From Sulfitobacter indolifex (GTDB lineage: Bacteria; Pseudomonadota; Alphaproteobacteria; Rhodobacterales; Rhodobacteraceae): a stretch of DNA of 64,000 bases. The notes under the pieces are model-generated. The model was not told the origin of the DNA and searched no databases. It saw only the letters and a program-made list of their open reading frames with translations. The position numbers and the translations under genes were made by a program. The first letter of the stretch is position 1; each line of letters opens with the position of its first letter. This document shows positions 1 through 5,367 of the stretch, piece by piece. Where the stretch lies: NCBI RefSeq assembly GCF_022788655.1, contig NZ_CP084951.1, forward strand, positions 868,001 through 932,000, read 5' to 3'.

Positions 1-540
1 TGGAATTCCCGAACCTTCACCCAAGGCCCTCACGCACCTGGCTGGTTCATTGATACTGATAGCGTGATAAGTAGGTCTCGAATTGTGCCGTGTCCCGTTT
101 CAAGTTTTCTAGCTGTATCTCAGTGCCCAAACGGGAAGTACAACGAGCCAGCACAATTTGGCCGTAATGGCGACGCATCGATCCAATCACCTTTGCCGAC
201 TGGCTTCTCTGTGAAAATACGTGCAAAAGGTTACGTTAAAAATTTTTCAACAAAGGCCGGTGAGCGTCGTATCAATGTCTTTTGGAAAGAATTTAAGTTG
301 GAAAAGCAACGCTCCAACGAAGCTCCGGTGTCACAAGAAATAGCGTGGGGCAAATCAACAGACTGGCAGTTTCCGCTCAGTACCGAAGCGGTCAGGATCG
401 AAATTGCAAGCTTCGACGGCACGACATACGTAGCCTCTGGCAACGACGGGGGTAATTTTTTTGAGATTGACTACAATGCCGGGACTAAGCAACTAATCGT
501 CAGGGCTAAACAACCAACAGACATAGCCGATCTCAATTGA
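1..540 (+). CDS. Hypothetical protein, 3' end only
   Basis: The frame is open from the first base of the window, so this is most likely the C-terminal part of a longer gene. A GTG at position 64 could also start a 158-residue protein, but no convincing ribosome binding site precedes it. The visible part is soluble, without membrane segments. It alternates short beta-prone stretches with polar loops and ends in a stop after a Thr-Asp-Ile-Ala-Asp-Leu-Asn tail. I recognise no family. It lies in the A+T-rich element, so it is probably element cargo. Confidence 0.45.
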   Translation, partial: WNSRTFTQGPHAPGWFIDTDSVISRSRIVPCPVSSFLAVSQCPNGKYNEPAQFGRNGDASIQSPLPTGFSVKIRAKGYVKNFSTKAGERRINVFWKEFKLEKQRSNEAPVSQEIAWGKSTDWQFPLSTEAVRIEIASFDGTTYVASGNDGGNFFEIDYNAGTKQLIVRAKQPTDIADLN

Positions 541-1277
541 GCAATAGTCAGCGTCCACCATAATATTTCACATCCCATGCGTTGGCCCGGTGTCGATGCC
601 GCGCTCGTCGTCGATCCCGGCTATCTGTCCAAAACGCGTACCTTTTAGTCCATATCAAAACCGACCGTTTTTATCTCTTACTGCTTCGCCAAAGCCGACG
701 TTGGTGCGACCGCAGTGAAATGGCGTTTTGTCCGCTGAGCCGACACTCAACTGCCTCATTCCGACGAAGGCCTGTTTGCGACAGGTTTAGCATTAAGAAC
801 CAAAGGCTTTCGTGGCAAAAATTCTAATAGGTTGAACTGACATGCTATCACCCGAGTTCTCTTGTGATACGATCCTGCACTCTACCGAAATCTACCCAAT
901 TTCGACACTTGAGCGATACTGATCTGAAATTGGTCCAGGGCAGGTATTCCAAAACGTAGTGGAGAGCCACGGAGAGGTCCTGTAAACGCCAGTTGGGGTT
1001 TTGGCCGCGTTGGGGTGCCAGGAAGCTTCCAGGGGCCACCATGCGGCTTCTGAGGTGATCTGGCGGGCATCGCTCAAGTGCTCCAATTTGAAGGCGTGGG
1101 TAAGCGATAATGCCGCCAGTTCACGCGTGTATTTTGGGTGCTATACCTAAGGTCGTTTAGGAACCCTAATAAGGGTTCCATTGAAACCCTAAAAGTCTTT
1201 ATAAAACATAGGTTTGACTCAATTGCGTGTCCGCATTATATAGATAGCAATCTCCCTTCCTTTACGCGGCAACTCTC
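541..1277. other. Non-coding stretch upstream of polymerase-like gene
   Basis: About 740 bases without a gene I can support. Several short frames are open on both strands, but they overlap one another, lack ribosome binding sites and show no family features. The part around 590-790 looks like degenerate intergenic DNA. The last 150 bases are A+T rich and hold the inverted repeat listed separately, so they may contain the promoter or control region of the polymerase-like gene. Confidence 0.5.
1160..1179. promoter_or_regulatory. Inverted repeat GGAACCCT/AGGGTTCC upstream of polymerase-like gene
   Basis: A perfect 8-bp inverted repeat with a 4-base AATA spacer. A further AAACCCTAAA copy of the half-site follows about 10 bases later. 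It lies about 100 bases before the polymerase-like gene in an A+T-rich stretch. It could be an operator, a replication or iteron-type site of the element, or a short RNA hairpin. The sequence alone does not decide. Confidence 0.4.
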
Positions 1278-2804
1278 TTGTCAGACCTTCTCGATCAAAT
1301 ACCTCAAGACCAGCTGGATGCTCTCGCGATCACCGTGGGTGCAGTCCCTTCGGCGATGCCCTCTGGGGACGTGCGGGATAACTTCCGTTTGTTCCATAAA
1401 ATCGAGGGGTCAAAACCTTACCGTAAGAAGTTGGCTCAGGCTGCTAGAGACCTCTACGAGATACTTAGGCAGAACAAGACGGTCCAAAATTACGTGGGTA
1501 AGCGGGTTTACTTGAAGGGTCGTGAACGCGGTAGGATCAAGAGCCTCCCTAGGACTAGTGCCCGCTACCACTGTTCTGCTCTTGAACTGTTACTGCATAG
1601 TATAGCTTTTGCTCTCTCTGCCCCGTTGACCAAAGACAGCAAAGGCAGCAAGCGGAGGGAATTCGTCGCTATCCCGTTAGCTAATAATGCATTCTCCAAG
1701 CCGCCGTATAAGGGCATCAATCGTGATGCTTTCCGCAGTGTGGTCTACGCTCTTGCCATCTTTGACCCGGAAAAGCAGGGGAAGCCTTGGTTGGATTACC
1801 GTCCTCCTTTCAATAATCCAGAGACCGGGGAAGGTAAGAGGACTTGCATACGGGCCGATACACCCCTCGAAGAGTGGATGTTCAGTAAGGGGCTAATCTT
1901 TCCCTATCACCCCAGTGGTCCGGATGGGTCCAAGTCGAAAGCTGGGAAGAGGGCGAAGAAATCTTGTTTATGGGTGTCCTGCAAAGCCCAGGAGTGGGGC
2001 GAGGAGACGCAGTACAGCCAACTGGACCGCCCTCTTGAGGGCGAGGAGATGGTCCTTCTGGCGATCAATGAAGTTCTCAACAAGCAGCGCATTTCCTGTC
2101 AGTTCACAAGCTATGCTGAGTACAAAAAGTACTATAACTACAGGGAGGGACGACCCAGAACTGCATTGGGGGGCAACAAACGTCTTTGCCGTGTGTTTTC
2201 TGAGGAAGATGGTCGCGGAGGTCGCCTATACGGCCATTGGGTTCAAACCATGCCGTCTGAACTTCGTCAACGCCTGAGGATCGATGGTTCTGTAGTGTCC
2301 GAACTGGACTTTGGGAGCATGCAGCTAGCGCTTCTCTACCACTTGGCTGATGCTCCCGTCCCTGAAGGAGACCTTTATTCCCAGCCTGGGATGACTTCAT
2401 CTCGTAGCGACATGAAGATGGTGCTGACACTGTCCGTTGGTAACGCTACTGAGCAAGAGACGTTGGGGGCCATCCGAGGCCGATTGCACGATGAGTGGCG
2501 ACCTAGAAAAGGGCGTGCAGAACAGCTCTACGATGAGTTCTGGTCCTACCACAGCCTGGCAAACCCGCATCAACAGAGCGAGAGTGATGGGGCGTGGATT
2601 GAGCTTCAGAGGTTGGACAGCGCTATAGCTCTCCGCATCTTAGCGCGTCTGCTTGATGACGGTATCACTGCTATTCCTGTACATGACAGCTTCATCGTTA
2701 AGCGTTGTCATGTTGAGACTACCAAAGACGTGATGTTGCAGGTGTTTGCTGAATACTGCCCAGGTACAGATGTACAGGTTAAGGTTACAGGGAAGGGTGC
2801 ATAA
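1278..2804 (+). CDS. Divergent family-A-polymerase-like protein of mobile element
   Basis: A protein of 508 residues from a TTG start; the start is uncertain because no clear ribosome binding site is visible. Its last third carries what I read as the three palm/fingers motifs of family-A polymerases. Motif A is DFGSMQL (Asp344), which aligns without gaps to DYSQIEL of Pol I, with Gln at the usual Glu. Motif B is RSDMK (Arg376, Lys380), followed by an unusual sequence lacking the O-helix Phe and Tyr. Motif C is VHDS (His469-Asp470), with Ser where Pol I has Glu, as in the HDS motif of T7-type RNA polymerases. There is no exonuclease domain, and the A-to-C spacing is shorter than in Pol I. Both catalytic Asp are kept, so activity is plausible. 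The product (DNA, RNA or primer) cannot be told. The assignment is by eye. Confidence 0.55.
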   Translation: MSDLLDQIPQDQLDALAITVGAVPSAMPSGDVRDNFRLFHKIEGSKPYRKKLAQAARDLYEILRQNKTVQNYVGKRVYLKGRERGRIKSLPRTSARYHCSALELLLHSIAFALSAPLTKDSKGSKRREFVAIPLANNAFSKPPYKGINRDAFRSVVYALAIFDPEKQGKPWLDYRPPFNNPETGEGKRTCIRADTPLEEWMFSKGLIFPYHPSGPDGSKSKAGKRAKKSCLWVSCKAQEWGEETQYSQLDRPLEGEEMVLLAINEVLNKQRISCQFTSYAEYKKYYNYREGRPRTALGGNKRLCRVFSEEDGRGGRLYGHWVQTMPSELRQRLRIDGSVVSELDFGSMQLALLYHLADAPVPEGDLYSQPGMTSSRSDMKMVLTLSVGNATEQETLGAIRGRLHDEWRPRKGRAEQLYDEFWSYHSLANPHQQSESDGAWIELQRLDSAIALRILARLLDDGITAIPVHDSFIVKRCHVETTKDVMLQVFAEYCPGTDVQVKVTGKGA

Positions 2805-2906
2805 AGTCGCCAACCCACCAGTATCGGTCTTCTGTCACCTAGCGGAGATTGTGCTATTGGCCGGGTTCGGTGACGCCTTACTTAACCGGCAGGTTGGTCG
2901 CGCCGT

Positions 2907-4400
2907 TTAGCTTTTGCTCTTATGGTTAAGGTATGGGTGCGGCACTTTATCGACCGCATCCTTCAGCTTGCGGAGGCTGAAGCCGTGGCCGTAGATGTCT
3001 TCCATGCCACCTAGGCCATGTCCGTGGATGCTCTTGTTGATCTCGGTTAGGACATCTGCGTCGCGCAATTTGTCTTTAAAAGTCCCGCGAAGTGAGTGTG
3101 TTACGAAATGGCCATTCGAGATTTCTGAGAGATTTTCTACTCCAGCCTTTTTGAACCAGTAGTTCATCTGGGTGGAGGCCCGAGTTTTTCCGTCTGCGTT
3201 CAGTTCGTAGTCGAATAGACGTTCCTGCCCCTTGCGATCTTTCAGAAGCTGGTGAACTAGCGGAAAAAGGGCGTCACAAATTGGGACGCGCCGCATAGAA
3301 CTCTTGTTCTTTACTTGAGCGTGTCTCAGATCGAAATACCAGATTCCGTCTAGATGTTTTACTTGGTCACAGCGGAGTGTCGCCACCTCATCGACACGCA
3401 TGCCGGTGCAGGCAAGGATGAGCCAGATTGTTCTGATGCGATCAGGAAGCTTCGGTTGTCCGACAAGTGCTTCTATTTGTTCATCACTCAACGGGTCGTA
3501 ATTTTTAGTTCCCGTACCGTAGTGTTTAAGGCTCAAGTTCAGGAAGGGGTTGACTTTAAGTAGCCCCTTTTTGACAGCAAGGTGCAGGGCAACCCTTACA
3601 TCGCTGATCCGCGCATTGATTGTCTTATTTGCCAGTTCTTCGGCAAGCGCTTCGGCGTAAGCGTATGCATGTATTGGTTCCAAATCCTCTAGTGCATGGT
3701 CACCGATCATCTCAACAAATTGCTTCAAGTGCCTAATCCGCTGCTTCGCGGTCTTCCGCTTCAAGGAACCCTTTTGAGCCAGTTGCCTGCCGTCCTCCTC
3801 TACCAAAGGCACTATTGAGCTAAGAGTATGTCGGGCAGGAGCAACGCCGTTCGCGCGACGAGCAGCTGCCACGGCGCTAATTACAGCTGCTTCAACGACG
3901 TCTGGTGCAGGTACGTTGAGCTGGAAGTCCTTCAGCGTCTTCAGCATTTCCGCAGTTCCGCCAGCAGTCCTTTCCAAGTCTCCCGAATGATAAGATTGTA
4001 TGCGCGCAAGTTGTCTTTTCAGCGTTTTTTCAGCGTCAGCAAGCAGCTTTTCGTTAGTAGGGGGCTCGACCATAGTGGTCTCGAGTATGTCATCGCGCGT
4101 GGCATCGTACTCGATAGAATAGACCGTATCAGCAAGTCCGAGGCTGGCTACTGCACGCTGGTAGTCGCCCTGAGGATCCACCAGACGCGCCTTTTCCAAA
4201 TCTGCGAGGATCGTGTGACGCAGTTCTGCCTCGAGATCATGTCGCTTGCGTTTAGCGGTCTCAAAGTCAGTAGTGCCTGCGGAGAGCCTTCGTTGGGTTG
4301 CGCCGCCAAGCTCCGCTCGCATGCTTTTTGGAACAGTCATCACGATGTAGTATTTATCGCCACGTCTGCTAACCGTCGCGGCATGCCAGTCAAGCTTCAT
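2907..4400 (-). CDS. Tyrosine-type site-specific recombinase (integrase)
   Basis: A 497-residue tyrosine recombinase that would catalyse integration and excision at tRNA-Cys. The N-terminal 50 residues resemble the small domain often fused to proteobacterial integrases (YYIVMTVPKSMRAEL). A SAM-like core-binding domain lies near residues 210-300. The catalytic domain shows the first Arg in CTGMRVDE, His435-x-x-Arg438 in HSLRG, His459/His461 and the nucleophile Tyr470 in MEDIYGHG. The catalytic set looks complete and the frame is intact, so the enzyme may be active. It starts about 100 bases from the tRNA 3' end and is transcribed away from it, converging on the polymerase-like gene. Confidence 0.93.
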   Translation of the reverse strand: MKLDWHAATVSRRGDKYYIVMTVPKSMRAELGGATQRRLSAGTTDFETAKRKRHDLEAELRHTILADLEKARLVDPQGDYQRAVASLGLADTVYSIEYDATRDDILETTMVEPPTNEKLLADAEKTLKRQLARIQSYHSGDLERTAGGTAEMLKTLKDFQLNVPAPDVVEAAVISAVAAARRANGVAPARHTLSSIVPLVEEDGRQLAQKGSLKRKTAKQRIRHLKQFVEMIGDHALEDLEPIHAYAYAEALAEELANKTINARISDVRVALHLAVKKGLLKVNPFLNLSLKHYGTGTKNYDPLSDEQIEALVGQPKLPDRIRTIWLILACTGMRVDEVATLRCDQVKHLDGIWYFDLRHAQVKNKSSMRRVPICDALFPLVHQLLKDRKGQERLFDYELNADGKTRASTQMNYWFKKAGVENLSEISNGHFVTHSLRGTFKDKLRDADVLTEINKSIHGHGLGGMEDIYGHGFSLRKLKDAVDKVPHPYLNHKSKS

Positions 4401-4412
4401 ACACTCCCCTTC

Positions 4413-4433
4413 GTAATGTCAGCTGTAATGTCA
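4413..4433. promoter_or_regulatory. Direct repeat GTAATGTCA between integrase and tRNA-Cys
   Basis: Two exact copies of GTAATGTCA, 12 bases apart start to start, lie just upstream of the integrase start codon, with a looser third copy next to them. Repeats here could be arm-type sites for the integrase, or an operator or excisionase site for its promoter. Confidence 0.45.
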
Positions 4434-4446
4434 AATGTAGTGTCCT

Positions 4447-4465
4447 CTTACCCCGAAAGGGTAAG
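4447..4465 (-). terminator. Hairpin after tRNA-Cys
   Basis: CTTACCC and GGGTAAG form a perfect 7-bp stem with a 5-base loop about 30 bases past the tRNA 3' end. It has no strong T tract, so it may be a weak terminator or a processing hairpin. Confidence 0.4.
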
Positions 4466-4496
4466 GAATCATAGCATAAAGGGAGGTGATGCTGTT

Positions 4497-4570
4497 TGGA
4501 GGCGAGTAGGAGAATCGAACTCCTGTACACGGATTTGCAATCCGCTGCGTAACCACTCCGCCAACTCGCC
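4497..4570 (-). tRNA. tRNA-Cys (GCA)
   Basis: A 74-base tRNA with the CCA end encoded. The acceptor stem GGCGAGT/ACTCGCC pairs fully, the anticodon loop TTGCAAA gives GCA, and the T loop TTCGATT is standard. The integrase gene next to its 3' end shows that this gene is the integration target; the copy here is complete. Confidence 0.97.
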
Positions 4571-4713
4571 GACCGGTGGTTGGCGCACTGCTACCGGATC
4601 GTGGGGGGCGCTGCAAGACCCATATGCGAGCGAAAACGCGGTCAGGGCGTTGCCGCTGGCCCGGCAATGTGTCACATCACTTATCAGACACCCTGAACGA
4701 ATGAGTTTAGCTG

Positions 4714-5367
4714 ATGAGTGATTTCGCCGCCCGCCGCGTAACTATGGTAGATACGCAGGTTCGTCCTTCGGATGTGACCAAGTTCCCAATCATTGACGCG
4801 ATGTTAACCGTACAGCGCGAAGACTTCGTGCCCGCGGCACAGCGTGAGGCCGCCTATCTGGGGGAAAACCTCGATTTGGGGCAGGACCGGGTACTGTTGG
4901 ACCCGCGGACGTTGGCAAAGATGCTCGATCACCTCGACATCACCAATGACGAGCTCGTGCTCGATATCGGGTGCGCGATGGGCTATTCCAGCGCAGTAAT
5001 CGCGCATATGGCCGAAGCTGTTGTCGCGGTTGAGGAAGACGAAGCCATGGCCGCTGAGGCGCAAGAGGCGTTGGCGCAGGCTGGGGCGGATAACGTGATC
5101 GTTCATGTGGCCCCGCTCACCGAAGGGGCGCCGCAGCATGGGCCTTACGATGTGGTGATTATCCAAGGTGCCGTCGGCGAAGTGCCCAAAGCGCTGTTGG
5201 AGCAAGTGAAAGAGGGTGGGCGTATTGCCACTCTCTTTATGGAACGGGGTCTGGGCGAAGTGCGCGTAGGCTACAAACGCGGCGGCCATGTCTCTTGGCG
5301 GTCAGAGTTTAACGCTGGTGCGCCGGTGCTGCGTGGCTTTGAGCGGCATGCAGAGTTTCAGCTGTAA
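4714..5367 (+). CDS. Protein-L-isoaspartate O-methyltransferase-like protein
   Basis: A 217-residue SAM-dependent methyltransferase of the Pcm family. Motif I reads VLDIGCAMGYSSAVIA near residues 88-103, followed by the acidic VVAVEEDE strand-2 region. The N-terminal MVDTQVRPSDVTKFPIIDAML segment and FVPAAQR are typical of the alphaproteobacterial Pcm-like group placed in front of a TolC-type gene. True repair methyltransferases have a slightly different substrate loop, so isoaspartate repair is only a family-level guess. It begins about 140 bases after tRNA-Cys and is the first chromosomal gene beyond the element. Confidence 0.85.
   Translation: MSDFAARRVTMVDTQVRPSDVTKFPIIDAMLTVQREDFVPAAQREAAYLGENLDLGQDRVLLDPRTLAKMLDHLDITNDELVLDIGCAMGYSSAVIAHMAEAVVAVEEDEAMAAEAQEALAQAGADNVIVHVAPLTEGAPQHGPYDVVIIQGAVGEVPKALLEQVKEGGRIATLFMERGLGEVRVGYKRGGHVSWRSEFNAGAPVLRGFERHAEFQL

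Follow-up and report, generated by a model that had tools for sequence, protein, structure and literature searches.

The 64,000-nucleotide stretch of the Sulfitobacter indolifex genome analysed here (contig NZ_CP084951.1, positions 868,001 to 932,000; hereafter the window) begins inside an element integrated in a tRNA-Cys gene. An open reading frame (ORF) at positions 1278–2804 of the plus strand, with a TTG start codon, encodes a 508-amino-acid (aa) protein, which an earlier note had described as a divergent polymerase with Pol I-like and T7 RNA polymerase-like features in an integrated element. The ORF was confirmed, as were the motifs DFGSMQL, R376-x3-K380 and VHDS (residues 468–471), in the order that had been claimed. 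Convergent with this gene, with 102 bp between the stop codons, lies the minus-strand gene of a 497-aa tyrosine recombinase (integrase; 2907–4400; PF00589, E = 5.1e-12; phrog_1, E = 1.2e-34), followed by the predicted tRNA-Cys (gca) gene (4497–4570, minus strand), which is the integration target and was the sole Rfam match in positions 1–5000. The 3′ end of the tRNA gene constitutes the right attachment repeat (22 bp; 4497–4518, plus strand), and its twin is located at G000:C1:859189–859210, about 8.8 kb to the left of the window. Because this 22-mer was found exactly twice in the 4.5-Mb genome, both times on the same strand (a reversed control pattern gave zero matches), the element was assigned a span of 13,330 bp (G000:C1:859189–872518). 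The impression that the polymerase had only an integrase nearby was thus an effect of the window edge, as another 8.8 kb or so of the element precedes base 1.

The ORF product is a family-A polymerase of the Pol I/T7 RNA polymerase superfamily, and the fold, residues and element borders described below agree with this part of the earlier description. The note had left the class of the polymerase unplaced; it is not a new class, but one of a kind already described in mobile elements beside integrases. Its class and its homology to the phage polymerase divPolA2 (PMC11348598) are well supported, and assignment to the TV-Pol type is supported by motifs and context, as judged against the text of PMC2579912 rather than its alignment. 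On balance we favour, with some reserve, the reading that this TV-Pol-type polymerase and the convergent integrase are the core module of the 13.3-kb tRNA-Cys element, with the polymerase acting in priming or replication.

Fold, homologues and active site of the polymerase

The AlphaFold model of the protein (mean pLDDT 84) contains a polymerase palm, the absence of which would have spoken against the earlier assignment, and its residues 220–508 were as close a fit to mitochondrial RNA polymerase as to Pol I. Strands at 304–307 and 315–318 form a hairpin bearing R316, and the helices at 255–269 and 279–284, N-terminal of this hairpin, are candidates for the thumb, which in TV-Pols consists of two antiparallel helices. 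An N-terminal domain (residues 31–228; 1368–1961, plus strand) is of mixed helix and strand and possibly winged-helix-like. The PDB matches listed were all DNA-templated polymerases and included no reverse transcriptase, and the retro-like enzyme that the earlier note had allowed for was therefore rejected.

By sequence, the protein had no match in Pfam (and hence no nuclease domain), NCBIfam or PADLOC, none to the classical Pol I family PF00476 up to E = 5, and none to a solved structure at E ≤ 10. PHROGs gave phrog_4756, a phage family without a named function, at E = 9e-26, the match being confined to the polymerase core (residues 303–490). A protein search in which 8000 candidates were scored returned 20 matches at E ≤ 1e-3 including the query, that is, 19 homologues, a similarity that, as scored, is far above chance; the existing UniRef name of one relative is "DNA-directed DNA polymerase family A palm domain-containing protein". 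Among 394 genomes of the same family, 50 contained a match at E ≤ 1e-5, with 66 places listed. Repeating the protein search with a 49-sequence profile brought little gain, and a scan of IMG/VR with the single polymerase protein yielded three pattern-matching stretches, none of which encodes a relative.

The query was aligned with 13 further homologues from the protein search, two Vibrio phage proteins and 33 ORFs of bacterial loci, 49 sequences in all; ORFs that were short or lay at a contig edge were omitted. Ten residues were invariant in all 49 sequences: F307, G315, R316, R330, D344, D365, Y367, R376, K380 and D470. On the plus strand, these include the Arg of the hairpin GGR (residues 314–316; 2217–2225), the catalytic D344 (2307–2309) of motif A, ELDFGSMQ (residues 342–349; 2301–2324), the fingers residues D365 (2370–2372), R376 (2403–2405) and K380 (2415–2417), which together span 2370–2417, and the catalytic D470 (2685–2687) of motif C, HDS (2682–2690), in which S471 is RNA-polymerase-like, as judged by the alignment and by profile comparison. 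Lack of conservation of Asp344 and Asp470 among homologues had been named as evidence against a polymerase, and both were kept throughout, although distant members are only 16–22% identical to the query. It is consequently highly improbable that the protein is an inactive relic, or one that binds DNA and retains the fold alone: several of the usual active-site side residues are indeed substituted, but the metal-binding Asp pair and RxxxK persist in 49/49 sequences at that level of divergence.

Q349 (2322–2324) occupies the position of Pol I Glu710, where the alignment has H in 23 sequences, Q in 18, N in 4, and S, G, F and E in one each, so that the Glu is replaced in 48 of 49. The position after the motif C Asp holds S in 40, A in 6, and G, C and E in one each, and the O-helix aromatics are found at the F762 and Y766 positions in one sequence of 49 each. 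The sole Glu at both the motif A and motif C positions belongs to the phage protein AUR84708 (L083), for which the alignment is least sure. The Tyr639-type residue of T7-like RNA polymerases is absent. In 13 Pol I-type sequences aligned for comparison, by contrast, the Glu of DYSQIE never varied, and 90% or more had the O-helix Phe, as also the Glu of HDE. The oddities pointed out in the earlier note (Gln in motif A, no O-helix aromatics, HDS) are thus real but not peculiar to this protein; as read from the alignment, they are traits of the whole polymerase family.

When the 49-sequence profile was compared with that of the 13 Pol I-type sequences, a match with probability 92.7 (E = 4.2e-7) and the motifs in register was obtained; for scale, the value between T7-like RNA polymerases and Pol I was 0.26, and that for integrases, an unrelated control, was 0.31.

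Recurrence with integrases and contents of the element

To the 40 stretches taken around matches, mostly the best-scoring of the 66 listed places, four named loci were added; L056 was dropped for want of an intact polymerase ORF and L004 is the same contig as L036, leaving 42 loci, in which neighbouring recombinases were called by iterated profile. A tyrosine recombinase was present in 30 of the 42 stretches and within 3 kb of the polymerase in 22, where chance would give about 2% of loci (estimated from 552 matches to integrases over some 201.8 Mb); the pairing is a recurring one. Seventeen of the 22 nearby recombinases are proteins of at least 300 aa and five are shorter ORFs (one of them weak). 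Nine of the 42 stretches contain tRNA-Cys, each time less than 100 bp from, or overlapping, a recombinase ORF. Five (L046, L054, L055, L059 and L062), a second homologue group, have tRNA-Gln no more than 3 kb from the polymerase, which suggests that other target tRNAs are used.

In 11 loci selected for having both genes, polymerase and integrase identities were correlated (Mantel r 0.83, p = 1e-4), and the two main polymerase clades paired with the two main integrase clades. Convergent stops 99–181 bp apart were found in 6 of these 11. The examined cargo differs among loci, while the polymerase keeps its place beside the integrase. The ratio of nonsynonymous to synonymous substitution (dN/dS) was left unused because dS was saturated in four of five polymerase pairs.

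The rest of the S. indolifex element consists of cargo and genes of unknown function. Positions 1–540 (plus strand) are the C-terminal end of a 471-aa ORF of unknown function (start L076:19125), and the 737 bp that follow, up to the polymerase (541–1277), may be a control or origin region; its weak repeats, like those in two relatives, are short and two-copy and were taken as chance. Cargo includes an XRE and ImmA/IrrE peptidase gene (Peptidase_M78, 9.1e-13; PADLOC RmrA, 3.8e-21, and capP, 1e-16), a gene for a Sel1-repeat protein, and an HNH gene that resembles methyl-directed restriction enzymes of type IV (4.8e-28); further ORFs are of unknown function. The defence-like cargo lies upstream of the window, at L076:11972–14852, with a small ORF directly behind the XRE and ImmA/IrrE gene; in a related element (L042), type I methyltransferase and specificity genes adjoin the polymerase. 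The element ORFs searched included no recognisable relaxase, and Pfam showed no phage structural family in the 11 ORF pieces examined.

Flanks of nine genus-mates (about 1.5 kb or shorter) resembled the left flank only within the repeat (up to 30 bp), and the left-flank gene, in eight genus-mates, matched on another contig or far from tRNA-Cys in seven and was not judgeable in G408. The left border is therefore set by the 22-bp repeat. The left-flank gene itself (L076:9730–10584; G000:C1:857730) encodes a 284-aa protein with the look of an outer-membrane protein, and 93% identical copies occur on two other contigs (C2:193997 and C3:119361), so this flank, too, could be mobile DNA.

Proposed role of the polymerase

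Judged by analogy and context, the polymerase is most likely the element's own primase-polymerase, and it probably starts the copying of its mobile DNA. The integrase would cut the element out as a circle, the N-terminal domain would recruit the polymerase to element DNA, and the palm would start and extend a new strand, either copying the excised circle or converting a transferred single strand into duplex, prior to re-integration; helicase and processive replication would come from the host. Priming might, more tentatively, use ribonucleotides or a mixture, because the positions by which Pol I keeps ribonucleotides out carry other residues here.

Several observations weigh against this proposal. 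No recombinase was present in 12 of the 42 stretches, partly through contig ends, and the search of element ORFs turned up no helicase. Iteron-like origin repeats were not found upstream of the polymerase gene or in two relatives, a priming partner of the MP kind (see below) was not recognised among the upstream ORFs as judged by Pfam, and an empty site was not demonstrable. Furthermore, a narrow 20-sequence profile scored 12.8 against Pol I and 48.1 against T7-like RNA polymerase, the latter on motif C only.

A bolder form of the proposal, which we regard as possible but doubtful, holds that the clade found in these elements is a ribonucleotide-accepting family-A primase-polymerase. Having lost the Glu gate and the O-helix aromatics and carrying an RNA-polymerase-type motif C, it would represent a surviving link between Pol I and the T7-like RNA polymerases, priming its own replication with RNA or mixed primers, partner-free, via a new N-terminal DNA-binding domain. 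Ribonucleotide use is here a prediction from the residues alone.

Alternatively, the gene could be cargo, its product serving in repair, translesion synthesis or gap filling, or it could belong to a defence system that the element carries. The restriction-like and ImmA/IrrE-type genes are in keeping with this, as are the phage relatives, which are described as lying beside a regular polymerase in variable neighbourhoods (PMC11348598). Such a role is nevertheless unlikely, considering that the polymerase holds its place and diverges with the integrase while the examined cargo varies by locus, and that PADLOC, in which a known defence protein was sought, had no match to it.

Quite unlikely, too, is a single-subunit RNA polymerase that transcribes the genes of the element in the way that phage T7 is served by its own. 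When six T7-like RNA polymerases were compared, the motif C region alone aligned, with both the narrow (48.1) and the broad profile (32.5), so that a whole-core match was found with Pol I and not with this group. Nor was any N-terminal region recognised that resembles the promoter-binding part of T7 RNA polymerase, and the assayed TV-Pol relative CCPol makes DNA, as reported in PMC7581432.

Comparison with TV-Pol, divPolA2 and CCPol

The primase-polymerase reading draws on three described systems. TV-Pol (Iyer, Abhiman and Aravind, 2008; PMC2579912) is defined there by a hairpin Arg, two palm Asp, a fingers Asp and RxxxK, all of which are shared by the polymerase described here and its relatives (49/49). 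TV-Pols have no nuclease domain, and none was found here. A subset of TV-Pols has an extra N-terminal domain and is encoded near a lambda-type integrase, a resolvase or a transposase, and the species in the figure legend include many alphaproteobacteria; an extra N-terminal domain, an integrase-bearing mobile element and hot spots with restriction-modification genes are likewise common to both. The N-terminal domain is all-helical in that text, whereas our model also has strands, and TV-Pols elsewhere are often linked to a helicase, of which the ORFs searched here gave no sign. Of the TV-Pol members named in 2008, the one compared was that of phage Ma-LMM01, for which we chose the gene gp030; for its family, profile comparison gave a probability of 45.2 (E = 2.2e-4) with the motifs in register; HMMER did not recover gp030 at E ≤ 10, and a phrog_4756 search of Ma-LMM01 gave zero matches. 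This unannotated gene (L080:22746–24266), which adjoins a transposase, encodes a very remote relative whose motifs are laid out as in TV-Pol (motif A DVVKCH, motif C QHDG).

The tailed-phage polymerase divPolA2 (representative AUR84708; PMC11348598, 2024) matched weakly in a direct search (tblastn E = 4e-3). A profile of 47 non-phage members aligned with it at 102 bits over positions 58–443 of 451, N-terminal domain included, and with a second Vibrio phage protein at 160 bits (positions 91–447). According to the account in that paper, divPolA2 too has palm, fingers and an unidentified N-terminal domain without a 3′ exonuclease, and ties to both DNA and RNA polymerase folds. AUR84708 has Glu aligned at the motif A and motif C places, unlike its relatives here, with the uncertainty of alignment mentioned above. 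Using L083:3362–4654 as the query, relatives were found in 266 of 50,697 phage records, including Vibrio phage ICP1 and Rheinheimera phages, and the 30 matches listed carry no polymerase name. Whereas divPolA2 is described as a phage gene beside a regular polymerase, here the gene belongs to an integrative element of a bacterium and is paired with that of an integrase; TV-Pol does not figure in the divPolA2 section of the paper, nor do the words "integrase" and "mobile" anywhere in it. The homology links a phage protein of unknown role with bacterial integrative elements. Charybdis elements were considered, since several of the homologues sit on small contigs, but the text consulted from PMC12324425 showed no connection.

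The nearest functional parallel is CCPol-MP (PolA-SSB), a family-A polymerase from a mobile element that also has a site-specific recombinase, for which DNA priming is reported to have been shown (PMC7581432, PMC10061031). As described in PMC7581432, CCPol needs its partner MP for priming; in the element here, no same-strand gene lies directly downstream of the polymerase as a candidate OB-fold partner, and the upstream ORFs had no telling Pfam match. E710 and F762 of E. coli Pol I discriminate against ribonucleotides, and CCPol keeps equivalents of both and prefers dNTPs (PMC7581432), whereas both are replaced in the S. indolifex protein and its family has lost such residues almost uniformly. 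Because this loss is found in the family of a compact, recurring two-gene module, the idea of an ancestral activity becomes testable on one small protein.
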